A stretch of DNA of 20,188 nt from a virus: positions 1 through 20,188 of the IMG/VR virus record IMGVR_UViG_3300032560_000153; one strand, written 5' to 3'. The translations under genes and the position numbers were made by a program. The notes beneath the pieces are model-generated. The model did not search any database. It was not told the origin of the DNA and was given only the letters and a program-made list of their open reading frames with translations. How positions within the stretch are numbered: the first letter of the stretch is position 1; each line of letters begins with the position of its first letter. This document shows, in pieces, positions 222 through 10,401 of the stretch.

Positions 222-1654
222 CCACAAAGCAGGAAAAAATCTTAGCAGATTTTGCAACCGCAAATAAACATTGGCCTAAGGCGCAACTTGATGCAGCCTT
301 ATGGCAAGTCAAATGGAGCCTGCAGGCTTTACCACACCAACAAGAACCCGAGGGCGGGGAGTATGATACACTGCTGATGTTAGCAGGTCGAGGATCTGGT
401 AAGACACACACCGCATCACATTGGATCGGTATCAGGGCTTGGAAGTATCCAGGCACCCGATGGTTAGTCACAGCGCCAACATCAAACGATATTAGGGCAA
501 CATGTTTTGAAGGCGACTCAGGATTGATGAACATCATCCCAGCCTCGCTGATAGAGACTTATAACAAATCATTATTTGAAATCACATTAACCAACGGTTC
601 TATTATACAAGGCATACCGGGCTCAGAACCAGAACGGTATCGAGGTAAACAATTCCACGGCGCTTGGTTTGATGAGCTCTGTGCATTTGATTATATTGAT
701 GATGCATACGATGGTGTTCAGTTTACACTGCGATTAAAAGACCCACGCATTCCTCGTGTTCAGCAGATCATCACAACAACACCCAAACCAAAAGAATTAA
801 TTGTTGATTTGAATGAGGGTAAGGTTGGAGGTGATGTGTATGTCATCAACGCCAGTTCATACGACAACAAAGAAAACTTATCAGCTACGTTCTTCAAACA
901 GTTAGAGTCATACGATGGAACTGACTTAGGGCGTCAAGAGATCTATGGTGAAATTTTAGATCCAGAAGCGTCGGGTATTATCAAACGTAAACAATTCCGT
1001 TTATGGTCAGCAAAGAAACCTACACCAAACCTTGAATACGTGATTGCCTCATACGACCCTGCAACCAGTGAGAAGACACACAATGACCCAACAGCATGTA
1101 CAGTCTGGGGCGTATTTGATCAAGAGGACGCGGGCACATCAATCATATTGCTGGACTCTTGGGATGCACATCTATCCTACCCAGAGTTGCGACGTAAGGT
1201 GATTGATGACTTTAAAGAGGTAGTCTACGGATCTGACAACGAGTTCGGTAAGGGACGAAAAGTAGATCTCATACTGATGGAGGATAAGTCAGCTGGTATA
1301 TCATTGATCCAAGAACTCCAAGGTGCCAATGTCCCAGTCAGGGGTTACAACCCAGGCCGAGCAGATAAAGTTCAGCGTCTTAATATTGTAGCACCTATTG
1401 TTGCTAAAGGCAAGGTATTTATACCAGAAGATATTAATATAAAAGGCGAGTATGCAGAGTGGGCTAAACGCTTCATACGACAGGTATGTTCGTTCCCAGA
1501 AGCGGGCGGTCATGATGACTACGTTGATTCACTTTCACAAGCACTACGAGTTCTCAGAGACTCGGGATGGATTCAATTAGATCCGTTACCATCAAGGGAT
1601 TATTCATACGCAGATGACTCTTCTAAGAAATATGCAAACCCATACGCTCAATAG
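215..1654 (+). CDS. terL: Terminase large subunit (ATPase/nuclease DNA packaging motor)
   Basis: This is the motor that pumps phage DNA into the prohead through the portal and cuts the concatemer. The 479 residues have the full two-domain layout at normal length. Walker A is AGRGSGKT at residues 57-64, and Walker B is GAWFDE at 149-154, ending in the catalytic Glu. The coupling motif is TTTP at 187-190. The RNase H-fold nuclease domain shows Asp281 in SYDPAT, Glu356 in LMEDKSAG and the HDD...D cluster at 433-438, the expected metal-binding acidic residues. The start ATG at 215 has GAAGGA 11 nt upstream and overlaps the previous stop. The TAG stop at 1652-1654 is also the first triplet of a repeated intergenic element. 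The portal follows. Assignment is by motifs and I consider it secure. Confidence 0.95.
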   Translation: MLTTKQEKILADFATANKHWPKAQLDAALWQVKWSLQALPHQQEPEGGEYDTLLMLAGRGSGKTHTASHWIGIRAWKYPGTRWLVTAPTSNDIRATCFEGDSGLMNIIPASLIETYNKSLFEITLTNGSIIQGIPGSEPERYRGKQFHGAWFDELCAFDYIDDAYDGVQFTLRLKDPRIPRVQQIITTTPKPKELIVDLNEGKVGGDVYVINASSYDNKENLSATFFKQLESYDGTDLGRQEIYGEILDPEASGIIKRKQFRLWSAKKPTPNLEYVIASYDPATSEKTHNDPTACTVWGVFDQEDAGTSIILLDSWDAHLSYPELRRKVIDDFKEVVYGSDNEFGKGRKVDLILMEDKSAGISLIQELQGANVPVRGYNPGRADKVQRLNIVAPIVAKGKVFIPEDINIKGEYAEWAKRFIRQVCSFPEAGGHDDYVDSLSQALRVLRDSGWIQLDPLPSRDYSYADDSSKKYANPYAQ

Positions 1655-1700
1655 GGCGGAATCTTTTCGGATTATGTATTAGTGTGCTTAGATATGAATC
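1652..1700 (+). repeat. Two-box intergenic element, copy 1 (terminase-portal gap)
   Basis: TAGGGC at 1652-1657 is followed by TATGTATTAGT at 1673-1683. The two boxes are 21 nt apart start to start, exactly as in the copies at 5290 and 9745. A looser third match, GAATC, lies at 1696-1700 (also at 9788-9792 in copy 3). The TAG is the terminase stop codon. No convincing long stem is visible in this copy. It sits upstream of the portal gene, and no endonuclease gene is next to it. Function is unknown. Confidence 0.7.
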
Positions 1701-1721
1701 TTTTAGGTACCTATAATTAAT

Positions 1722-4580
1722 ATGGCAAAACAACCGCAAATCGCAATCCAAAAAGGTGGAAACTTGCCTACGTTAGATGATCGTGAAGACGATATCAAAC
1801 AATCTGTAGAACAGGATGATGAGACTCATGAAATTGCAGATGATCTTGGTATTGATGATGCCGATGCAGAACAAGAAGTTATTGAACTAGATGATGGCTC
1901 AGTAGTTGTAAACTTCAAGCCAACTAAAGGACCACAAACAGATCCAGACTTCTATGAGAACTTAGCAGAAGTCTTTGACGATGGAACGCTAGACTCACTA
2001 GCAAATGAATATTTAGATTATATTGATGTCGATAGAGAATCAAGAAAACAACGCGACAAGCAATATGAAGAGGGTTTGCGCCGTACAGGTTTGGGCAAAG
2101 ATGCTCCAGGCGGTGCAACATTCGACGGCGCATCCAAAGTTGTACATCCAGTTATGGCAGAAGCTTGCGTGGATTTCGCTGCATCATCAGCCAAAGAGTT
2201 ATTACCCCCAGATGGTATTGTTAAGTCAAACATCAAGGGTGATGCAAATACAATTAAAGAAGCTACTGCAGAACGTAAAGTAAACTTTTTAAATTGGCAA
2301 TTATCAGAACAGATACCTGAGTATCGTGATGAGATGGAGCAGTTGCTAACACAACTACCATTGGGTGGATCACAGTTCCTTAAATGGCGTTTTGATCCAG
2401 AACAAAAACGTCCAACATGTGAATGGGTACCGATTGACAACATCTTGTTACCTTACGCGTCAACAAACTTTTATACTGCGTCTCGTAGTACAGAAGTACA
2501 AGACATTACAGAAGACATCTATCTACAACGTATTGAGCAGGGTATATACCGCGATACGGATGCTTCATATACATCTGACGCTCCTTTAAACGACCAAACA
2601 CAATCAGAAAAAGCTAACAATAAGATTGAGGGCAAAGATATGCCTTCTAAAAATATTGATGGTCTTCGTCGTGTTTATGAGATTACTTGTTTTATTCGTT
2701 TAGACGATGATGATGTTTCAGAAGGCAAACGCGCTCCATACATTTTAACAATTGACGAGTCAAGCAGCAAGGTTCTTGGCCTTTACCGTAACTGGGAAGC
2801 TAACGATGAAAAACTTCAAAAATTGGATTGGTTCGTTGAGTTTAAGTTTATTCCTTGGCGTGGGGCTTATGCTATTGGCTTACCTCATCTCATTGGCGGT
2901 CTTTCTGCCGCTCTTACTGGTGCATTACGTGCTTTGTTGGATTCAGCACATATTAATAATAGCCAAACATTACTTAAATTAAAAGGTGGTCGTATTGGTG
3001 GACAGTCGGATCGTATTGAACCGACACAGGTAGTAGAGATTGAGGGAGCTCCAGGTGTAGATGATGTACGTAAATTGGCTATGCCAATGCCATTTAGTCC
3101 ACCATCAAGTACATTGTTAAACCTATTAACATGGTTGACAGATGCAGCTAAGGGAGTAGTAACAACAGCAGAAGAGAAGATTGGCGAAGCTAATAACAAT
3201 ATGCCAGTTGGTACTGCACAAGCACTAATTGAGCAAGGTGCCAAGGTATTCTCTAGTATTCATGCACGATTACATCGTAGTCAAGCTAAGTCATTAGCAA
3301 TCATCTCACGTATCAATCATTGGTACTTAAATGAGATGGATAATGAATCAGGCGAAGAAATTGAAGTTAGAGACTTTGCTAACAACAATGATGTCCGCCC
3401 AGTTTCAGACCCTAACATATTTTCAGAAACACAACGCCTAGCTCAAAACCAAGCAATTTTACAGCTTGCTAGGGAAGCCCCACCAAACATGTTTGACCTA
3501 CGGGCAACTTATCGTAGGGTTTTACAACAACTCAAGGTTCCAGCAATTGATGAGATATTACCAAACCCACAAGGTGCAAGTGAATCTAATCCAGCATTAG
3601 AGAACGTATCCATGACAATGGGTCGTCCGGCCGCAGCATACCCAGACCAAGATCATCTAGCACATATTCAAGTACACTTGGAATACACAAATAATCCAGC
3701 GTATGGTGGTAGTCCAGTAATTGGGCCAACATTAACACCACCTATGTTAGATCATTTGAAACAACATTTAACGCTACATTACTTGCAATCAATGCGTTCA
3801 TATGTATCTCATGCAGCCGGTGGTAAAGATGTATTTAAACTGCATGAAGAAAGTCCAATGGACGCTGAATCTCAGCAAGCATTGGCCCTAGCAGCTCAGA
3901 TGGTTGATCAAGATGCCACTCAGATCCTAGGTCAGTATTTACCAAAAATTAATGAGCTTGCACAAAAAATGCAACAGATGCAACAAGGTCAACAACAAGC
4001 TGCTGCAGATGCAGATCCAACGGCTCAAGTTATCCTTAAAACACAAACGGCTGAGACTCAACGTAAAGCTCAAGAAGCTCAGGCTAAAATGCAACTTGAA
4101 ACAGCATCACAACAGCAAGAGTATCAAATTAAAATTGCTGAATTGCAACAAAAAATGCAAGAACTTGAAGCTAAATATAAAACACAATCAACTATTGATT
4201 CACAACGTAACGCCACAAACATTGCAATGGCAGATATCAATAACTCTTCTCGTGAACGTATTGCAGAAATTTCAGCTCAAGCTCAATTATCACAAAGTCA
4301 GCTACAAATGCAACACGAGCAAGACACTACAGCGTTCATGACGTCACAAGAAGCAGCTAGTGATATCAGACAGCATGGTATTGATATACAACAACAAGCA
4401 TTTACGCAACAAGCTGAAGCAGCACAACAGCAAGCACAACAGCAAGCACAACAGGCACATCAAGCTGATCAACAAAATCAGCAAATAGCAGCTCAAACAC
4501 AACAGCAACAAATGGATCAAGCACATCAACAACAAATGCAAGCTAATCAACCACAACCAGCACCACAATCCGGAGAATAA
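1722..4580 (+). CDS. Portal protein with long Gln-rich C-terminal extension
   Basis: The portal is the dodecameric ring at one head vertex through which DNA enters and leaves, and to which terminase and tail bind. This is inferred from position right after terminase and from sequence style shared with large podovirus-like portals: an acidic N-terminus (about residues 17-60), then the segment FDGASKVVHPVMAEA, then GGSQFLKW and VPIDNILLPY, and a helical stretch around GLPHLIGGLSAALTGALRALLD. At 952 residues it is long for a portal. From about residue 745 it becomes a Gln/Ala-rich helical and coiled-coil tail of over 200 residues, ending in near-pure Q/A/H/N runs; this may form the barrel/stem that projects inside the head. 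The start has no clear Shine-Dalgarno: the nearest AGG is 14 nt away. The next gene starts 2 nt after the stop. Confidence 0.85.
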   Translation: MAKQPQIAIQKGGNLPTLDDREDDIKQSVEQDDETHEIADDLGIDDADAEQEVIELDDGSVVVNFKPTKGPQTDPDFYENLAEVFDDGTLDSLANEYLDYIDVDRESRKQRDKQYEEGLRRTGLGKDAPGGATFDGASKVVHPVMAEACVDFAASSAKELLPPDGIVKSNIKGDANTIKEATAERKVNFLNWQLSEQIPEYRDEMEQLLTQLPLGGSQFLKWRFDPEQKRPTCEWVPIDNILLPYASTNFYTASRSTEVQDITEDIYLQRIEQGIYRDTDASYTSDAPLNDQTQSEKANNKIEGKDMPSKNIDGLRRVYEITCFIRLDDDDVSEGKRAPYILTIDESSSKVLGLYRNWEANDEKLQKLDWFVEFKFIPWRGAYAIGLPHLIGGLSAALTGALRALLDSAHINNSQTLLKLKGGRIGGQSDRIEPTQVVEIEGAPGVDDVRKLAMPMPFSPPSSTLLNLLTWLTDAAKGVVTTAEEKIGEANNNMPVGTAQALIEQGAKVFSSIHARLHRSQAKSLAIISRINHWYLNEMDNESGEEIEVRDFANNNDVRPVSDPNIFSETQRLAQNQAILQLAREAPPNMFDLRATYRRVLQQLKVPAIDEILPNPQGASESNPALENVSMTMGRPAAAYPDQDHLAHIQVHLEYTNNPAYGGSPVIGPTLTPPMLDHLKQHLTLHYLQSMRSYVSHAAGGKDVFKLHEESPMDAESQQALALAAQMVDQDATQILGQYLPKINELAQKMQQMQQGQQQAAADADPTAQVILKTQTAETQRKAQEAQAKMQLETASQQQEYQIKIAELQQKMQELEAKYKTQSTIDSQRNATNIAMADINNSSRERIAEISAQAQLSQSQLQMQHEQDTTAFMTSQEAASDIRQHGIDIQQQAFTQQAEAAQQQAQQQAQQAHQADQQNQQIAAQTQQQQMDQAHQQQMQANQPQPAPQSGE

Positions 4581-4582
4581 AC

Positions 4583-4804
4583 ATGGTAGTAGATAAGAAC
4601 GTAGGTTACAAGAAAGCATATAAAATGACAGGTACCCCAGGCTACGCTGGTGACACTGCAACAACAGAAATCGAAAAAGGTAAATCCGGATCCCACCGTG
4701 ATGAAAACTGGAAAGTTGGCGCCGCACAAGTTAAATTAACTAAAGGTTCTAAGGTAGGTCCAGACAAAAATCTAAACGAAATCGGTGGCGGAAATTTTTA
4801 TTGA
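4583..4804 (+). CDS. Small conserved-looking phage protein, unknown function
   Basis: A 73-residue, Lys/Gly-rich basic protein that I do not recognise. The ATG at 4583 lies 2 nt after the portal stop, with CGGAGA at 4570-4575 as ribosome binding site at 7 nt spacing. It ends GGGNFY with TGA at 4802-4804, overlapping the TTG start of the HNH gene by 4 nt. It contains no membrane segment or Cys pairs. Lying between portal and head genes, it may be a small head or connector component, but that is inference from position only. Its last codons seem to have been altered by insertion of the HNH gene. Without that insertion it would end in the same residues but with a TAG stop. Confidence 0.7.
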   Translation: MVVDKNVGYKKAYKMTGTPGYAGDTATTEIEKGKSGSHRDENWKVGAAQVKLTKGSKVGPDKNLNEIGGGNFY

Positions 4805-5292
4805 AGCGAAGTAATCCGCAAACTGGAAAAAGCTTTAAAAGAGGCGAATATCGGGATGATGGATTTAGGTTTCATCATTACAGATATGATAGACCTTTAA
4901 AAGATGGACTATACACAGAATCTTGGTATAGTCCGGAAGCATTTGATAAACAAAATATTGGGATGGCTAAATGCCGAGAATCCAATAGAGAAAAAGCTCG
5001 ACAAACAACAAGACTTTGGCAAATAAACAATGCCAATAAGGTCAATGATTATTTTAATCAACGAAGAGCTGACAAATTAAATAGAACTCCATCCTGGTTA
5101 TCTGAAGACCAACGAAATGAAATTCAAGAATTTTATGAAATGGCTAAAGCATTAGAAAATATTTTCCCTTGGAAGCAACATGTAGATCATATTGTTCCAT
5201 TAAAAGGTAAAAACGTATCGGGATTAAATGTTCCTTGGAATCTTCAAATATTATCAGCGCATGAAAATATTACAAAAAGTAATAAATATTAG
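4801..5292 (+). CDS. Free-standing HNH endonuclease (putative homing endonuclease) 1
   Basis: A 163-residue HNH nuclease. The catalytic segment near the C-terminus reads HVDHIVPLKGKNVSGL (residues 127-142), then VPWNLQILSAHEN, giving the D-H, N and H/N positions of the ββα-metal fold (Asp129-His130, Asn147, Asn156). A RTPSWLS linker at about 95-101 precedes it and matches RTPKWLT in the second HNH protein of this window. The N-terminal half is basic and aromatic and may bind DNA. The start is TTG at 4801, preceded by GGCGGAA about 8 nt away and overlapping the previous stop. The TAG stop at 5290-5292 is the first triplet of the repeated element. Such genes usually spread themselves by cutting alleles that lack them; a packaging role of the kind known for some cos-phage HNH proteins is less likely given two unlinked copies. 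Confidence 0.88.
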   Translation: MKRSNPQTGKSFKRGEYRDDGFRFHHYRYDRPLKDGLYTESWYSPEAFDKQNIGMAKCRESNREKARQTTRLWQINNANKVNDYFNQRRADKLNRTPSWLSEDQRNEIQEFYEMAKALENIFPWKQHVDHIVPLKGKNVSGLNVPWNLQILSAHENITKSNKY

Positions 5293-5349
5293 GGCAGATA
5301 TAACTATTGCTGTGTATTAGTAATAATATACAGCAATAGAAAGAATATC
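5290..5349 (+). repeat. Two-box intergenic element, copy 2, with strong stem-loop
   Basis: TAGGGC at 5290-5295 and TGTGTATTAGT at 5311-5321 keep the same 21 nt offset as the other two copies. Here box B lies inside a stem-loop. CTATTGCTGT at 5304-5313 pairs perfectly with ACAGCAATAG at 5330-5339. The stem extends by GTAT (5314-5317) with ATAT (5326-5329), including one G-T wobble, around the loop TAGTAATA. There is no T-run after it, so it is not a standard intrinsic terminator. The TAG is the stop codon of the HNH gene. Confidence 0.7.
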
Positions 5350-5351
5350 GC

Positions 5352-5549
5352 ATGGTTGATTTAATAGGCGAAATCCTGAAGAGGATTAAGGCCGCAGAAT
5401 TTAATACTAAAGAAGCGTTAGCTTCTGGTACACACATCCAAACTTTTGAACAATATCAGAGGTTATTGGGTACTTGTGAAGGATTATCACAATCTCTCAC
5501 ATTAATCGAAGGCATCCTATCAGAGGATGATGAAGACCAAAACAACTAA
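5352..5549 (+). CDS. Small phage protein of unknown function
   Basis: A 65-residue mostly helical protein with an acidic end (SEDDEDQNN). Phage head regions often carry a small gene with this look: a short helix, then a Tyr-x-x-Leu-x-Gly segment (here FEQYQRLLGTCEGL), then a second helix. I cannot assign a function. The ATG at 5352 is 30 nt downstream of box B of the repeated element and has only a weak ribosome binding site (AGAAAG). A GTACC/GGTAC inverted repeat follows right after its stop. It would be a direct neighbour of the 73-residue gene if the HNH gene were absent. Confidence 0.7.
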   Translation: MVDLIGEILKRIKAAEFNTKEALASGTHIQTFEQYQRLLGTCEGLSQSLTLIEGILSEDDEDQNN

Positions 5550-5563
5550 GTACCGTATGGTAC
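5550..5563 (+). promoter_or_regulatory. Small inverted repeat before the GroES-like gene's ribosome binding site
   Basis: GTACC-GTAT-GGTAC forms a perfect 5 bp stem with a 4 nt loop directly after a TAA stop. It is followed immediately by AAGGAGA at 5564-5570, a strong ribosome binding site 8 nt before the ATG at 5579. An ATG at 5571 touching that site leads to a stop after five codons and is unlikely to be used. The hairpin could tune translation or be a processing site. It is short, and chance is possible. Confidence 0.35.
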
Positions 5564-5578
5564 AAGGAGAATGGCCGT

Positions 5579-6025
5579 ATGGCTATAGTAGCAGATTATA
5601 ATAGCAATGCAGAGGCGGATTTAAGGTCCGAAGCTGAATGTTTTCCCACAATCGATCCGGGTGTAGAAATTTCTGGAGACCGTGTACTTGTACAATTACG
5701 TCGTCAGAAGACAAAAAGCCGGGGTGGTATCTTTTTAGTGGAGGAAACAACCCAAACTTTGAAATTTAACGAAACTGTAGCAAAAGTAGTCCAAATTGGA
5801 CCTTTGGCATACAAGAGTCCAGATACTTTAGAGCCTTGGCCTGAAGGTAACTGGTGTGAAGTGGGTGATTTAGTGAGAACTATCAAGTATGGTGGTGATC
5901 GCTACGTAGTAGATGCAGAAGACGGTGAAGGTGCAGTGATATTTATTACATTGCAAGCCCGTGAAATCATCTCTAAGATTAAATCATTTGAATTCGCTCA
6001 AAAAATGAAAAGTTTTGTAGATTAA
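5579..6025 (+). CDS. GroES-like co-chaperonin (phage-encoded Cpn10)
   Basis: Probably a phage co-chaperonin that caps the host GroEL during folding of capsid or other virion proteins, comparable in role to T4 gp31. The Cpn10 signature runs over residues 30-132: GDRVLVQL at 33-40, then the mobile-loop region KTKSRGGIFLVEET at 44-57 whose GGIFL corresponds to the GroEL-binding Ile-Val-Leu tripeptide of GroES. TVAKVVQIG, EVGDLVRTIKYGG and the closing LQAREIISKI match the rest of the barrel. It is longer (148 residues) than GroES (about 97), with about 28 extra N-terminal residues, a longer insertion (YKSPDTLEPWPEGNW) in place of the roof, and a C-terminal helix. It lies just upstream of the putative scaffold and capsid genes, which fits a role in head assembly. 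Confidence 0.82.
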   Translation: MAIVADYNSNAEADLRSEAECFPTIDPGVEISGDRVLVQLRRQKTKSRGGIFLVEETTQTLKFNETVAKVVQIGPLAYKSPDTLEPWPEGNWCEVGDLVRTIKYGGDRYVVDAEDGEGAVIFITLQAREIISKIKSFEFAQKMKSFVD

Positions 6026-6045
6026 CTTTGTATAAAGGATAGAAA

Positions 6046-7026
6046 ATGGCAGAAGAAAAGAAAAATATTCCTATTAAGGAACATGAGGATGGAAGCGTAC
6101 AAGCAAAGCTTAGCGCTTCAGACGTCGAAGAGTATGATGGGTTCGGAGTCGACGAAAAAGAAGAGAATCCCGAAGAATTAGAAGGTGATGAAGAAGGTGA
6201 AGAAGAAAGTTCTGAAGAATCTAGCAACGAAGATGGTGATCGAGAACAAATCCGTGAAGCCCGTCGTGAAGAGCGCAGATTAAAGAAAGAATTAGCAAAA
6301 CAGCGTGAGGCATCATCCAAACATAAGATTAGTGCACTAGAAAAACGTAACGAAGACCTAGCAAAACGCCTAATTCAACTAGAAAACGGCGCTGCATCGC
6401 TTCGTTTTGCACAGATAGACAAAGCCGTGGAAGATGAAGCCACCAGAGTCGAATATGCAAAGATGAAGATGTTACAGGCCGCCCAAGCAAATGATGCTGC
6501 AGGTCAAATTGAGTATTTAGATCAATTAACAGATGCAAAACAAAGATTACTGCAAGTACAGCATTATAAAAAGAAACAGTTAGAAGAAGCTAATCGTCCT
6601 ACCCAAAATGTTCCAACACCTATGGCTGCTGAGGTTCAACAACAAGCAACCCACTGGTTAAAGAAGAATTCTTGGTATGACCCAGAAGCTCGTGATACAG
6701 ATAGTAGAATTGCCAAAGTAATTGATCAAGAGTTAGCATCAGATGGTTGGGATCCAGCGGATTCTGAGTACTGGGATGAGCTTGATAATCGTTTAGCTGC
6801 AAGATTACCACATCGTTATACAGCAGGCAGCAAGAATGCCAAAAGGTCCTCAGGACCTACAGCATCGAGCCGTGTAGCGAATACATCAACAGGTCGACCT
6901 AATACCATCACATTAAGCCGTGATCGTGTTAATGCGATTAAGGATGCTGGTGCTTGGGACGACACAGATAAACGAAATAAAATGATCCGCGCATACGCAT
7001 CGTATGACCGCGCTAATAAAGGATAA
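6046..7026 (+). CDS. Putative capsid scaffold protein
   Basis: 326 residues in the usual place of a scaffold gene, between portal and capsid. Residues 25-66 are strongly acidic (long Glu/Asp runs with Ser). Then about residues 70-195 form a charged helical region with coiled-coil character (REARREERRLKKELAKQ and following). Then comes a more globular part with paired Trp/Tyr (HWLKKNSWYDP, SDGWDPADSEYWDEL) and a basic, Ser/Thr-rich C-terminal part ending in a short helix. Acid-rich plus coiled-coil plus basic C-terminus is the general build of phage scaffolds, whose C-terminus contacts the coat protein. There is no protease motif. The ribosome binding site AAGGA lies 6 nt before the ATG. Function is inferred from build and position, not from a recognised motif. 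Confidence 0.6.
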   Translation: MAEEKKNIPIKEHEDGSVQAKLSASDVEEYDGFGVDEKEENPEELEGDEEGEEESSEESSNEDGDREQIREARREERRLKKELAKQREASSKHKISALEKRNEDLAKRLIQLENGAASLRFAQIDKAVEDEATRVEYAKMKMLQAAQANDAAGQIEYLDQLTDAKQRLLQVQHYKKKQLEEANRPTQNVPTPMAAEVQQQATHWLKKNSWYDPEARDTDSRIAKVIDQELASDGWDPADSEYWDELDNRLAARLPHRYTAGSKNAKRSSGPTASSRVANTSTGRPNTITLSRDRVNAIKDAGAWDDTDKRNKMIRAYASYDRANKG

Positions 7027-7031
7027 ATATA

Positions 7032-7586
7032 ATGGCTAACAATCGAATCACTCGCGACTTAGATGATCGCATTTCTGATAGAGTACAAGAAGTAAAGGAC
7101 AGGTCTACATTGGCCAGTTCAGATGATATCGCACATCGCGAACGCCTAGATGCGTTCAGAGATAAATGGCAAAATAGTGCGTTGCCTGATATTCCGGGAA
7201 GTGCAATCCCAGGAATGCACTTGTGTTGGTTGAGTACCACCAATACATATGACAGTATCGACAAACGTATGGCATTGGGTTATGAACCAGTTAAAGCTAG
7301 TGACTTAGGTAAAGGCTTTGAAGGACTAGGTAAAATGAGCTCGGGCAAGTTTGAAGGCTGTATTACTTGTAATGAAATGATTCTCTTCAAGTTACCTGAA
7401 GATGTCTATCAAGAAGTTATGCATTTGTTGCACCTTGAGGATCCCCTCGAGCACCAACGAAATATCACGGCTAATGTTCGTGACACCGCTGATGGTAAAA
7501 AGGGCGGGCGTAGTATTTTGGAAGGCGGACTTTTGGAAATGGAAAGAGATGCTTCAAAAGCAAGTAAAAACATTCGTTTTCAATAA
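7032..7586 (+). CDS. Head-region protein of unknown function
   Basis: A 184-residue soluble protein between the putative scaffold and the capsid cluster. Visible features are a charged N-terminal helix (about residues 5-50), then SALPDIPGSAIPGMHLCWLSTTNTYDSI as a likely folded core, Cys residues at CITCNEM, a helical segment LPEDVYQEVMHLLHLEDP, and a Gly-rich then charged C-terminus. I do not recognise the family. The ribosome binding site AAAGGA overlaps the end of the preceding gene and sits 8 nt before the ATG. Position suggests a minor head or assembly protein. No catalytic motif is apparent. Confidence 0.65.
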   Translation: MANNRITRDLDDRISDRVQEVKDRSTLASSDDIAHRERLDAFRDKWQNSALPDIPGSAIPGMHLCWLSTTNTYDSIDKRMALGYEPVKASDLGKGFEGLGKMSSGKFEGCITCNEMILFKLPEDVYQEVMHLLHLEDPLEHQRNITANVRDTADGKKGGRSILEGGLLEMERDASKASKNIRFQ

Positions 7587-7614
7587 CTAACTTTAAACAC
7601 AAAGGAATAGACAT

Positions 7615-8277
7615 ATGTCTACAGTATTTCAACCCTTTGGTCTGAAACCTGCCTACCACCCAAGTGGACTTGATCGTGCAGTACCTTTTGTCGGTACTAA
7701 CTCATATTCAAACGGCGTTTCATACAGTGCTAACTACTCTTTGTCTTCTGGTCAATCTTTTTTCCAGTACACTCCAGTAGCTATCACTACAACAGGCCAA
7801 CTTACACTCGCAAACCAAGCCGCAGCATCTGGTAAAGTTTACGGTTCTTTTGACGGTGTAGAGTACACTAACTCAGATGGTCGTCGCGCAGTTGCGAAGT
7901 CAATCTCTTTAGTTGCTTTAGCCGCCTCAACTCAAGTTATTTTCTGGATTTTTGCAGACCCTGCATTAGTTTATGAAATTCAAGTAAACGGTTCTGCTAC
8001 TACTAGCGCCGTAGGTACTGAATACAACTTTGATACTACTGCAGGTTCTACTGTTTCTGATGGTTATACTATCGGTATCGGCGGATCAGGCTTCTCTACT
8101 ACTGCGTTGCTTGCAACAGCAGTTGGTACTGGCGTTCAAGGTCAAGTTCGTGTTGTTGGATTAGGCCGCGAAGCAGCTTACCCAGCAGGAAACACAAACG
8201 CTTGGGGCGATGCATTTACTATCGTTCAAGTTCAGATCTCTAACAATGCATTTGCCGCTCCGTCGGTCTCTGTATAA
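7615..8277 (+). CDS. Putative head decoration / capsid-associated structural protein
   Basis: 220 residues, rich in Ser, Thr, Ala, Gly and aromatic residues and very poor in Lys, Cys and Met, with many short β-type segments: a typical virion structural composition. It starts MSTVFQPFGLKPAYHPSG and has strong AAAGGA 8 nt upstream. It lies 19 nt before the major capsid gene, the common place for capsid decoration or stabilisation proteins. Codon use here and in the capsid gene looks more uniform than in flanking genes, consistent with high expression. The family is not firmly recognised, so the decoration role is inference from context. Confidence 0.6.
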   Translation: MSTVFQPFGLKPAYHPSGLDRAVPFVGTNSYSNGVSYSANYSLSSGQSFFQYTPVAITTTGQLTLANQAAASGKVYGSFDGVEYTNSDGRRAVAKSISLVALAASTQVIFWIFADPALVYEIQVNGSATTSAVGTEYNFDTTAGSTVSDGYTIGIGGSGFSTTALLATAVGTGVQGQVRVVGLGREAAYPAGNTNAWGDAFTIVQVQISNNAFAAPSVSV

Positions 8278-8296
8278 TTAACGAAAGGAAATAGCA

Positions 8297-9214
8297 ATGG
8301 CAACCCCAATGCGTAGTACGGACTTTCGTGCGGTAGTCGAACCGATTATCAACGAGGTCTTTGATGGTGTATATGAGCAACGTGACGATGAGTGGAAAGG
8401 TTTTGTTGAACAAACAACCGGTATTCCACGTAACTATCACGAAGAAGTAATGTTATTTGGTATGAACGCAGCTCCTGCAATGCCTGACGGCACTCCAGTT
8501 AGCTATGACCAAGGTGGTACGTTATATGTCACACGTTTTATCTATCAAATTTATGGCTTAGCTTACGCTATGACTAAAGTTTTGATGGAAGACGGCGATC
8601 ATATCCGTATCGGCAGTACTTTTGCAAAACACTTAGCTCAATCTATGATTGAAACAAAAGAAACTTTATGTGCTAACTTATTGAACTTTGCCTTTACAAG
8701 TGGCTACACTGGCGGTGATGGCGTTACGCTAGTCAACTCAGCTCACCCAATTGCAAACGGTGGCACTTTCAGTAATCAATTAAGCACTGCAGCTTCATTG
8801 TCACAAACATCAGTTGAACAATTATTGATTCAAATCCGCTCTGCCGTAGACAATAACGGTAAACGTATTCGTCTTAAAGCTGAACAGTTAGTAGTTCCGC
8901 CAGCACTAGAATTCCAAGCTGAAGTTATCTTGAAATCTGTGTTGCGTTCAGGTACTGCTGACAATGATTTGAACCCTATCAAATCAACAGGTATGTTACC
9001 AAAAGGCGCTCATGTAGTTACTCGTTTGAGCTCTTCTAAAGCTTGGTGGATCCAAACAGATGCAGAAAATGGCTTAATGCTAGTTATGCGTCGTCCGATG
9101 GAAAAATCTGTCGAGGGAGACTTCGAAACTGACTCTATGCGCTACAAGGCAACTGAGCGTTATAGTACTGGTTGGCACGATGCCCGTAATATTTACGGTA
9201 CATCAGGTCTTTAG
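8297..9214 (+). CDS. Major capsid protein (HK97-like fold expected)
   Basis: 305 residues with features of phage major head proteins of the Mu gpT-like/HK97-fold type. An N-terminal helical arm (residues 1-45) precedes a segment RNYHEEVMLFGM. A long central helix surrounds IGSTFAKHLAQSMIETKETLCANLLNFAF. The LVNSAHPIANGGTFSNQL segment and the later LVVPPALEFQAEVILKS match the usual order in this family, followed by a β-rich C-terminal part ending WHDARNIYGTSGL. The ribosome binding site is AAAGGA 7 nt before the ATG. A strong intrinsic terminator follows 21 nt after the stop, as expected for the most abundant virion product. Alternative: the neighbouring 220 aa protein could be the coat, but length, composition and motifs favour this one. 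Confidence 0.85.
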   Translation: MATPMRSTDFRAVVEPIINEVFDGVYEQRDDEWKGFVEQTTGIPRNYHEEVMLFGMNAAPAMPDGTPVSYDQGGTLYVTRFIYQIYGLAYAMTKVLMEDGDHIRIGSTFAKHLAQSMIETKETLCANLLNFAFTSGYTGGDGVTLVNSAHPIANGGTFSNQLSTAASLSQTSVEQLLIQIRSAVDNNGKRIRLKAEQLVVPPALEFQAEVILKSVLRSGTADNDLNPIKSTGMLPKGAHVVTRLSSSKAWWIQTDAENGLMLVMRRPMEKSVEGDFETDSMRYKATERYSTGWHDARNIYGTSGL

Positions 9215-9229
9215 TATCCTGTAAGAAAT

Positions 9230-9262
9230 AAAAAAGCTACCCTTAAAAAAGGTAGCTTTTTT
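9230..9262 (+). terminator. Intrinsic terminator after the major capsid gene
   Basis: GCTACC at 9236-9241 pairs perfectly with GGTAGC at 9251-9256 around a 9 nt A-rich loop. An A-run lies upstream (9230-9235) and a T-run downstream (9257-9262), so the stem can extend to 12 bp. It would work in both directions, but there is no - strand gene here. It separates the head genes from the second HNH gene. Confidence 0.93.
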
Positions 9263-9275
9263 ACATTTAGGCGAG

Positions 9276-9288
9276 TATAATATTATAT
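9276..9288 (+). promoter_or_regulatory. Possible -10 promoter element for HNH gene 2 (leaderless)
   Basis: A consensus TATAAT at 9276-9281 lies just after the terminator and 7 nt before the ATG at 9289. Transcription would therefore start at or next to the start codon and give a leaderless mRNA. This fits the absence of any Shine-Dalgarno in this AT-only stretch. No good -35 hexamer is visible at 16-18 nt spacing, so support is partial. Confidence 0.35.
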
Positions 9289-9747
9289 ATGGCTAAAGAT
9301 ATAGAAAATCAAAAAAGATTAGCAAAAGAATGGTATGAGAAAAATAAAGATCGCGCTAAAGAAAATGCTCGTCAGTGGGCTTTAAATAACCCAGATAAAA
9401 GAAAGGAAATTATAAGAAAATGGCGAGAAGAAAATATAGAACAATACAAGGCTACTAATAGAAATTGGACTTCAAAAAATCAAGATAGGAAAACAGCAAT
9501 AGAAGGTAAACGTAGATCTTCTAAGTTATTAAGAACACCAAAATGGCTCACAGCCGATGATATAGAGCATATGCGGGCTTTATATTCTTTGGCAGCAATG
9601 TTTCAAAGAGAATCAGGTATTATGTATCATGTGGATCATATTATTCCCCTCCAAGGTAAGTTTGTATCTGGACTTCATGTGCCAGATAACCTTCGTGTCA
9701 TCCCCGCAGTAGACAATCTAAAAAAGTCAAATAAACATATTTTATAG
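9289..9747 (+). CDS. Free-standing HNH endonuclease (putative homing endonuclease) 2
   Basis: 152 residues. The C-terminal catalytic core is YHVDHIIPLQGKFVSGL (Asp116-His117), followed by VPDNLRVIPAVDN (Asn134, Asn143), the same pattern as HNH gene 1. RTPKWLTADD at 82-91 precedes it as in the first protein. Residues 10-65 hold about four short degenerate helical repeats with a Trp/Tyr and an Asn in each (EWYEKNKDRAKEN, QWALNNPDKRKE, KWREENIEQYKA, NWTSKNQDRK), a repeat build common in phage HNH proteins and probably DNA-contacting. The gene sits alone between the capsid terminator and the repeated element. Its TAG stop is the first triplet of element copy 3. The start has no ribosome binding site. 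Confidence 0.88.
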   Translation: MAKDIENQKRLAKEWYEKNKDRAKENARQWALNNPDKRKEIIRKWREENIEQYKATNRNWTSKNQDRKTAIEGKRRSSKLLRTPKWLTADDIEHMRALYSLAAMFQRESGIMYHVDHIIPLQGKFVSGLHVPDNLRVIPAVDNLKKSNKHIL

Positions 9748-9792
9748 GGCGATAATTCCTACTTATATGTATTAGTATATTTAGGAAGAATC
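9745..9792 (+). repeat. Two-box intergenic element, copy 3
   Basis: TAGGGC at 9745-9750 and TATGTATTAGT at 9766-9776 have the conserved 21 nt offset. TTCCTA at 9757-9762 can pair with TAGGAA at 9782-9787. After a 2x2 internal mismatch, a short AT stem continues around a loop holding the GTATTA core, so box B is again at the tip of a hairpin. GAATC at 9788-9792 matches the GAATC of copy 1 at nearly the same distance. The TAG is the stop codon of HNH gene 2. Confidence 0.7.
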
Positions 9793-9870: not shown

Positions 9871-10401
9871 ATGTCATCAACATTTACCACACCAATTCGC
9901 GTATTCAAACGCAACAACCCAACAAACAACGGTGTTATCGCTCCAGACAACACAGGCGCAGCTCAAGTATCTCAACAAGTATCATTTTCTGGTGTAGCTG
10001 CCGCTGGAGCAATTACAACATATGGTATTGGTTCTCAATCTACTACTACAGATTCTATAGTAATCCCCGCAGGATCTTTAGTTCAAAATGTTCAATTATT
10101 TGAAACTACTGCCCCTTCAGCATTTACTGGATTAGTAATCACAGTAGCAATCGCAGGAACTACAGTAGGGGCTATTACTCCATTAACTACAGGCGGCCTA
10201 ATCCAATTTGTTCCTGCAGCAACAACCGCAGCCGCAGCACTATTAGCAAACGTTGGTGTAAATGATGTAGCAGTAACGTTCACAGTAGGAACTACTTCAG
10301 GAGTAACAGGAACATTAGCTGGAGTATTTTCAATAGACTACACAGCGCGTAACGTAGATGGTTCTATCATTGCTTACGGTTCTGGATACACAAACTCATA
10401 A
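9871..10401 (+). CDS. Putative minor virion structural protein (β-rich)
   Basis: 176 residues dominated by Thr, Ala, Val, Gly and Ser, with almost no charge after residue 35. It is predicted to be nearly all β-strand, as expected for a small decoration, tail or fibre-associated protein. The first 20 residues are basic and polar (FKRNNPTNNG). There is no signal peptide and no Cys. The ribosome binding site AAGGAA lies about 6 nt before the ATG. I do not recognise the family. The location between capsid and fibre genes supports a structural role. Confidence 0.6.
   Translation: MSSTFTTPIRVFKRNNPTNNGVIAPDNTGAAQVSQQVSFSGVAAAGAITTYGIGSQSTTTDSIVIPAGSLVQNVQLFETTAPSAFTGLVITVAIAGTTVGAITPLTTGGLIQFVPAATTAAAALLANVGVNDVAVTFTVGTTSGVTGTLAGVFSIDYTARNVDGSIIAYGSGYTNS

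Follow-up and report, generated by a model that had tools for sequence, protein, structure and literature searches.

Introduction

The late promoters of Salmonella phage 7-11 are bipartite (GTAAtg-16-aCTA) and are read by the phage sigma factor SaPh711_gp47 together with the host core RNA polymerase (PMC8948821). In phiEco32 the phage sigma factor gp36 lacks region 4, and a -10-like element, tAATGTAtA, is found before the middle and late genes; these single-element promoters have been explained by the absence of region 4 (PMC8948821). Late transcription in phage T4 uses gp55, gp33 and gp45. Of these, gp33 binds the beta flap, has no structural relationship with region 4 and fails to bind DNA alone, and the T4 system also requires the sliding clamp (PMC7892883). 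A review of jumbo phages contains the ideas nearest to those developed below, namely minimal sigma factors with a single HTH and orthologues of gp33 (PMC7824862).

The present study concerns a stretch of viral DNA of 20,188 nt, referred to below as the window, in which an earlier reading (the original prediction) had noted three copies of a two-box element. We propose that each copy is a sigma-dependent phage promoter, used by the host core RNA polymerase in combination with a two-part phage sigma factor, and we place the probability of this reading at about 0.8. Sequence analysis of the window and its relatives, most of which are metagenomic fragments, revealed a promoter-like distribution of the element, a fixed geometry, specificity for one clade, lineage-wide variants of the -10, a sigma gene, and a conserved protein of 101 aa together with its predicted fold. 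In the open-access literature that we searched we found no paper describing the motif.

Results

Three copies of the element in the window

The exact motif TAGGGC-N15-TRTGTATTAGT occurs three times in the window, always on the + strand, at 1652, 5290 and 9745, with its second box (box 2) at 1673, 5311 and 9766. The constant distance of 21 nt from box to box that had been claimed for these copies is thus confirmed. When both strands were searched with up to 3 mismatches, no further match to the two-box motif appeared in the window, and dinucleotide shuffles of the window gave a mean of 0.00 exact matches and of 0.12 with 3 mismatches. The box 2 core, GTATTAGT, is found in the window only at the three copies; TAGGGC alone is not above chance (7 found, 8.2 expected). 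Both boxes of the original prediction are therefore real, but the element is longer than was supposed, because a third conserved block had been missed. This block is a TA at element positions 38-39, 5 nt past box 2, and it lies at 1689-1690, 5327-5328 and 9782-9783 in the three copies. A looser GAATC that had been pointed out after copies 1 and 3 is not conserved in relatives. As had been stated, the TAG of each copy serves as stop codon for the ORF before it, these ORFs being the terminase, HNH-like 1 and HNH-like 2.

Distribution of the element among related phages

The exact motif is present in 19 IMG/VR stretches, and the form with GCATTAGT in at least 120. When IMG/VR was scanned with the motif only, 118 of the 119 new loci among the matches listed were found to encode proteins of this phage clade, and a reversed control pattern gave no match. 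When 84,980 bacterial and archaeal genomes were scanned, a sole match was obtained, on one contig binned in a betaproteobacterial MAG. The environmental genome MW202545 and Caulobacter phage RW have the terminase and the gene order in common with the window, and the motif is absent from both.

Related genomes and long contigs have about 3 to 8 sites each with a moderately strict pattern, distributed over both arms. Of 71 sites in 12 related genomes, 67 stand in front of a gene on the same strand and are directed into it. Relatives also keep the element in the same gaps. For example, the terminase stop codon is followed by the element, or by its beginning, in 29 of the 29 related loci listed; in one of these (L247) the contig holds just the first four bases of the element. 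TAG occupies element positions 1-3 in 36 of the 71 sites, and in 25 of these 36 it terminates a preceding reading frame 50 or more codons long, which suggests that the fusion to a stop codon is a common economy and is not obligatory. In close relatives two more tandem box 2 sites are found upstream of the terminase (at 157 and 204 on the - strand in L005, and near 88 and 159 in L006), so that the lineage of the window probably has at least five promoters.

The original prediction had left four options for the role of the element: a phage-specific promoter, an mRNA processing or termination site, a packaging or replication signal, and the recognition site of the HNH enzymes. The first is strongly supported by clade specificity, strand concordance, occurrence in the same gaps of relatives and fixed spacing, whereas none of the other three holds as the primary role. 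A packaging or replication signal, in particular, is difficult to reconcile with several oriented copies per genome ahead of genes. Judged from its sequence, the element is a virus-specific promoter, located where blocks of genes begin, in a large family of phages related to one another.

Consensus, geometry and predicted start site

A consensus was derived from the alignment of 120 non-redundant relatives. It begins with TAGGGCGRAWW and continues with a loose spacer turning T-rich, TWTGYATTAGTA and the TA at 38-39, followed by purines. The 15 bases between the boxes do differ, as had been reported, yet they are partly constrained: GGGC is followed by a G and then by A/T-rich positions, and box 2 is preceded by a T-tract. 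GGGCG is invariant at a fixed spacing in most sites, and box 2 together with TA forms the best-conserved part.

By the usual promoter conventions the TG of an extended -10 is assigned to -15/-14. If the TG at element positions 24-25 is placed in this way, ATTAGT falls at -12 to -7, GGGCGR at -36 to -31, and +1 at A39, after T. Read in this way, the element has a sigma-type promoter geometry, consisting of a -35 GGGCG(R), an 18-bp spacer and a TGn-extended -10 ATTAGT. When the box 2 core alone was used as bait at terminase and sigma loci, 157 of 274 sites had GGGC at a single offset, compared with 6 for the next best. Conversely, 27 box 2 sites have the TA block without GGGC, suggesting that the -35 is not always needed. 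Among 183 sites, element position 39 holds an ATG that opens a reading frame in 40, and no other position does so in more than 7. This pile-up suggests that many transcripts would be leaderless, with A39 of the conserved TA as the probable start site.

Copy 1 (1652-1690, + strand) is an exact motif match that conforms to the consensus, has the TA block and occupies the same gap in relatives. Its -35 is GGGCGG (1654-1659), followed by TG at 1675-1676, the -10 ATTAGT at 1678-1683 and a predicted +1 A at 1690, before the portal gene (1722-4580). Copy 2 (5290-5328, + strand), also an exact match, has its counterpart in the same gap of HNH-free relatives; its -35 is GGGCAG (5292-5297), with TG at 5313-5314, the -10 ATTAGT at 5316-5321 and a predicted +1 A at 5328. 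Downstream are an ORF at 5352-5549, the gene for a co-chaperonin (5579-6025) and then head genes. In copy 3 (9745-9783, + strand), an exact match that is found in the same gap without an HNH gene in L006, the -35 is GGGCGA (9747-9752), TG lies at 9768-9769, the -10 ATTAGT at 9771-9776 and the predicted +1 A at 9783, before an ORF at 9871-10401 and the genes after it.

Several other features of this region may be mentioned. The co-chaperonin, encoded within the head gene block, is a phage GroES-like protein (PF00166, PHROG 3188), and a co-chaperonin is annotated in the same block of MW202545 and Caulobacter phage RW. Copy 2 lies within a near-perfect 14-bp inverted repeat (CTATTGCTGTGTAT...ATATACAGCAATAG, 5308-5341) that covers the -10 and the start, with a fold z of -7.5; it is possibly an operator or a quirk of this lineage, and is not family-wide. 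Directly 3' of the major capsid gene is a terminator-like stem with a T-tract (AAAAAAGCTACCCTTAAAAAAGGTAGCTTTTTT, 9224-9263), which is also kept in L006, where the promoter comes directly after it.

The same bases can be read in another way, as promoters of a phage single-subunit (T7-like) RNA polymerase, in which case TTTGCATTAGTAnAnTA and the GG that follows it would span -18 to +2. Taking the length and start context of single-subunit polymerase promoters as the basis of comparison, the stretch from box 2 to the TAGG block does resemble such promoters in both respects. However, this leaves GGGCG at a sigma-type spacing unexplained, and a sigma factor is present (see below). Further, PF00940 had no match in 12 related genomes, with control genomes equally silent, and no such family is among the 25 listed for the non-structural proteins of G013. 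We consider a T7-like polymerase a very improbable reader of the element.

The T-tract before box 2 raises the question of an RNA signal, either an intrinsic terminator or a processing hairpin, in which GGGCG would supply the 5' arm. Stems of 4 bp or more that include 3 GC pairs can be formed in 62 of 179 sites, compared with about 36 in shuffled spacers (maximum 51), some sites read GGGCG-loop-CGCCC-TTTTTT, and copies 2 and 3 of the window fold well (z of -7.5 and -3.4). Most sites, however, have no stem, and copy 1 folds poorly (z of -1.6), no better than many shuffles; a GC-rich stem with a T-tract is thus not a property of all copies, as it should be for an intrinsic terminator. Hairpins around box 2 are on average no stronger than with shuffled flanks, and the best-conserved parts, box 2 and TA, are downstream of the T-tract. 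Processing or termination is therefore a side feature at most, and it is very improbable that it accounts for the element. In G013 (56369-56407 and 62801-62839) and G016 (8870-8908, - strand) GGGCG doubles as the 5' arm of a terminator-like hairpin with a T-tract (GGGCG...CGCCCTTTTTT), so that end and start signals overlap. A hairpin with TGTATTAG in its loop was considered as an RNA motif and rejected; it is perfect in L001 and strong in copy 2 of the window, but is not general. A search of Rfam gave sub-threshold matches only.

A sigma factor without region 4

Returning to the sigma-type promoter, a sigma70-family protein of about 190 aa, with regions 1.2, 2 and 3 (Pfam), is encoded in 10 of 13 related genomes and also in 80 IMG/VR loci. 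The remaining three genomes have no sigma gene on the contig, and these contigs may be incomplete. A four-member profile of the protein matches SigA (PDB) with E=2e-25 over regions 1.2-3.2. The polypeptide ends after region 3.2 and PF04545 gives no true region 4, so that regions 2 and 3 of a complete sigma70 factor are present and region 4 is missing from the same chain. A scan for sigma70-type promoters in the divergent region that precedes the sigma arm in G013 returned fewer matches than shuffles did. The 20-kb window contains neither the sigma gene nor the gene for the 101-aa protein described below, and the link of these regulators to the element therefore comes from relatives. The window's own phage presumably carries both genes, and the phage sigma is likely to be what reads these promoters.

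The -10 differs from lineage to lineage, with TTGCATTAATA, TTGCATTATTA or CGTATTAGT replacing TTGCATTAGTA; the lineage of the window has TGTATTAGT. Sites on the same contig agree in the -10 variant in 125 of 134 pairs, compared with a mean of 73 and a maximum of 88 in permutations, in which the kinship of contigs remains. Since the site in one gap is not a copy of that in another, a trans-acting factor is the simplest cause of these lineage-wide variants. G017 is the only lineage that shows a specific covariation of sigma and -10, the sigma protein having K for N and the promoters CG for TG. The K/N position aligns with the histidine that SigA has in its extended -10 helix, a residue that we take to have a role in extended -10 recognition.

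A candidate reader of the -35

A search for proteins conserved across the genomes yielded one of about 101 aa, present in 11 of 13 related genomes, the gene for which is directly downstream of an SNF2-type helicase gene. In 43 of 43 loci with both genes the two are on one strand, and the sigma gene is 6.3-10.3 kb upstream of the gene for the 101-aa protein; many other sigma loci stop short of this distance. By sequence its resemblance to region 4 is weak (PF08281, E=0.038), a search of the PDB gave no match, and neither did a BLAST search of phages with this protein. Its C-terminal 60 residues are predicted to form four helices, with pLDDT near 90, and almost all of the best 50 matches to this fold are to sigma region 4, among them SigE region 4 on -35 DNA. 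The best match has Z 7.4 and an rmsd of 1.8 Å over 57 residues, where a Z below 8 can mean a common helical arrangement, and the Foldseek E-values are weak, near 1. A putative recognition segment, EK.WRYHF, is invariant, which fits the constant GGGCG. The modelled fold suggests that the 101-aa protein may be the reader of GGGCG. Sigma2/3 and a candidate sigma4 would then be carried by separate conserved proteins, the identification of sigma2/3 being certain and that of its partner a fold prediction with weak sequence support.

A 56-aa region-4-like ORF of G013 (L256:17515-17691, - strand; HTH match to PF04545, E=3.2e-7) was also considered as the missing sigma4. It was not found in the other genomes examined, and the conserved 101-aa protein took its place; the ORF possibly encodes a second free-standing sigma4-like protein.

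It may be argued that the phage sigma acts alone through the extended -10, with GGGCG read by an upstream activator or by the host alpha-CTD, and that the 101-aa protein has some other role. The region-4-less gp36 of phiEco32 uses a single-element promoter (PMC8948821), some sites keep the -10 and TA without GGGC, and the sequence of the 101-aa protein resembles region 4 weakly, as noted above. Nevertheless, GGGCG is invariant and at fixed spacing in most sites, and the predicted fold matches region 4 almost exclusively, in a protein conserved in the same genomes. We therefore regard a sigma acting alone as possible but doubtful. Unlike in phiEco32, a sigma that lacks region 4 occurs here together with an invariant -35 box, which hints that the reader of the -35 is separable. 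In our estimation the chances are slightly better than even that this clade possesses a true two-subunit sigma, made up of regions 1.2-3.2 and a free region-4 protein encoded 6-10 kb away, which reads an invariant GGGCG and a -10 that drifts with lineage, and that HNH genes occupy the upstream edge of its promoters.

HNH genes at the edge of the element

Two HNH/endonuclease VII-like genes adjoin the element in the window, both on the + strand. Gene 1 (4801-5292; PHROG 1035 endonuclease VII, E=1.5e-10) is directly upstream of copy 2, and gene 2 (9289-9747; PHROG 1035 endonuclease VII, E=1.2e-13) lies between the capsid-gene terminator and copy 3. In both, the TAG stop codon is the first three bases of the promoter, an arrangement that recurs in L213, L231, G006, G012, G019 and G021. 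Across the clade, the stop codons of 23 of 30 HNH relatives are exactly on the element TAG. This speaks for the element as the recognition site, or a carried part, of HNH homing genes. The element is not, however, confined to the company of an HNH gene. In L001, L002, L006 and L011-L014 gap 2 is HNH-free and the element comes directly after the upstream gene; gap 3 of L006 is likewise HNH-free and the element follows the capsid-gene terminator. It is present in many other gaps, including the one before the portal gene, and its -10 variants track the genome. The HNH genes are therefore not the reason for the element, and it is most unlikely that HNH recognition or carriage is its primary role. 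Rather, the 23 coincident stop codons indicate that HNH genes settled at its upstream edge. This suggests that HNH genes preferentially home to or insert at the promoter edge, and they may exploit the element.

Discussion

In the mechanism that we propose, the host polymerase would transcribe the early arm of the phage genome, and two regulators from this arm would join the host core RNA polymerase. One would be the sigma with regions 1.2, 2 and 3 only, reading the -10 and extended -10, and the other the separate protein of about 101 aa with its predicted region-4 fold, reading the -35 GGGCG. The two-part sigma would then fire the elements, so that packaging, head, tail and some replication genes would be turned on. 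We infer both the timing of promoter use and the host.

These results provide a sequence-only transcription map, together with likely regulators, for a widespread phage group that lacks close cultured members. With so many promoter/sigma pairs, the co-evolution of sigma specificity and promoters could be tested directly, and the pairs would also serve as orthogonal laboratory parts.

The element shares with phage-sigma promoters the several oriented, group-specific copies ahead of genes and, in the relatives only, an encoded sigma factor. As in 7-11, the promoter is bipartite, is present in several copies per genome and is proposed to be used by a phage sigma on the host core; the sequences are unrelated, however, and the 7-11 sigma has a region 4 of its own, which the sigma described here lacks. 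With phiEco32 it has in common a phage sigma without region 4 and a -10-like element ahead of genes, but GGGCG, the -35-like box, is invariant here, whereas the phiEco32 promoters are single-element. In promoters of the phiEco32/7-11 type the start is 6-9 bp from the -10 element; here the predicted +1 is implied by the ATG cluster at 39. The combination of a region-4-less sigma-like protein with a second small phage protein recalls gp55 and gp33 of T4, although, in contrast to T4, a region-4 fold is predicted for the 101-aa protein and a -35 box is part of the promoter. The predicted separation of sigma2 and sigma4 domains on different polypeptides is like that of SigO-RsoA. SigO-RsoA is a host system, however, and in the phages regions 1.2 and 3 are retained in the sigma part, and 6-10 kb separate the two genes. 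None of phiEco32 gp36, 7-11 gp47, T4 gp55/gp33 and SigO-RsoA pairs a region-4-less phage sigma with a separate protein of region-4 fold. We propose that the element works like the late promoters of phage sigma factors.
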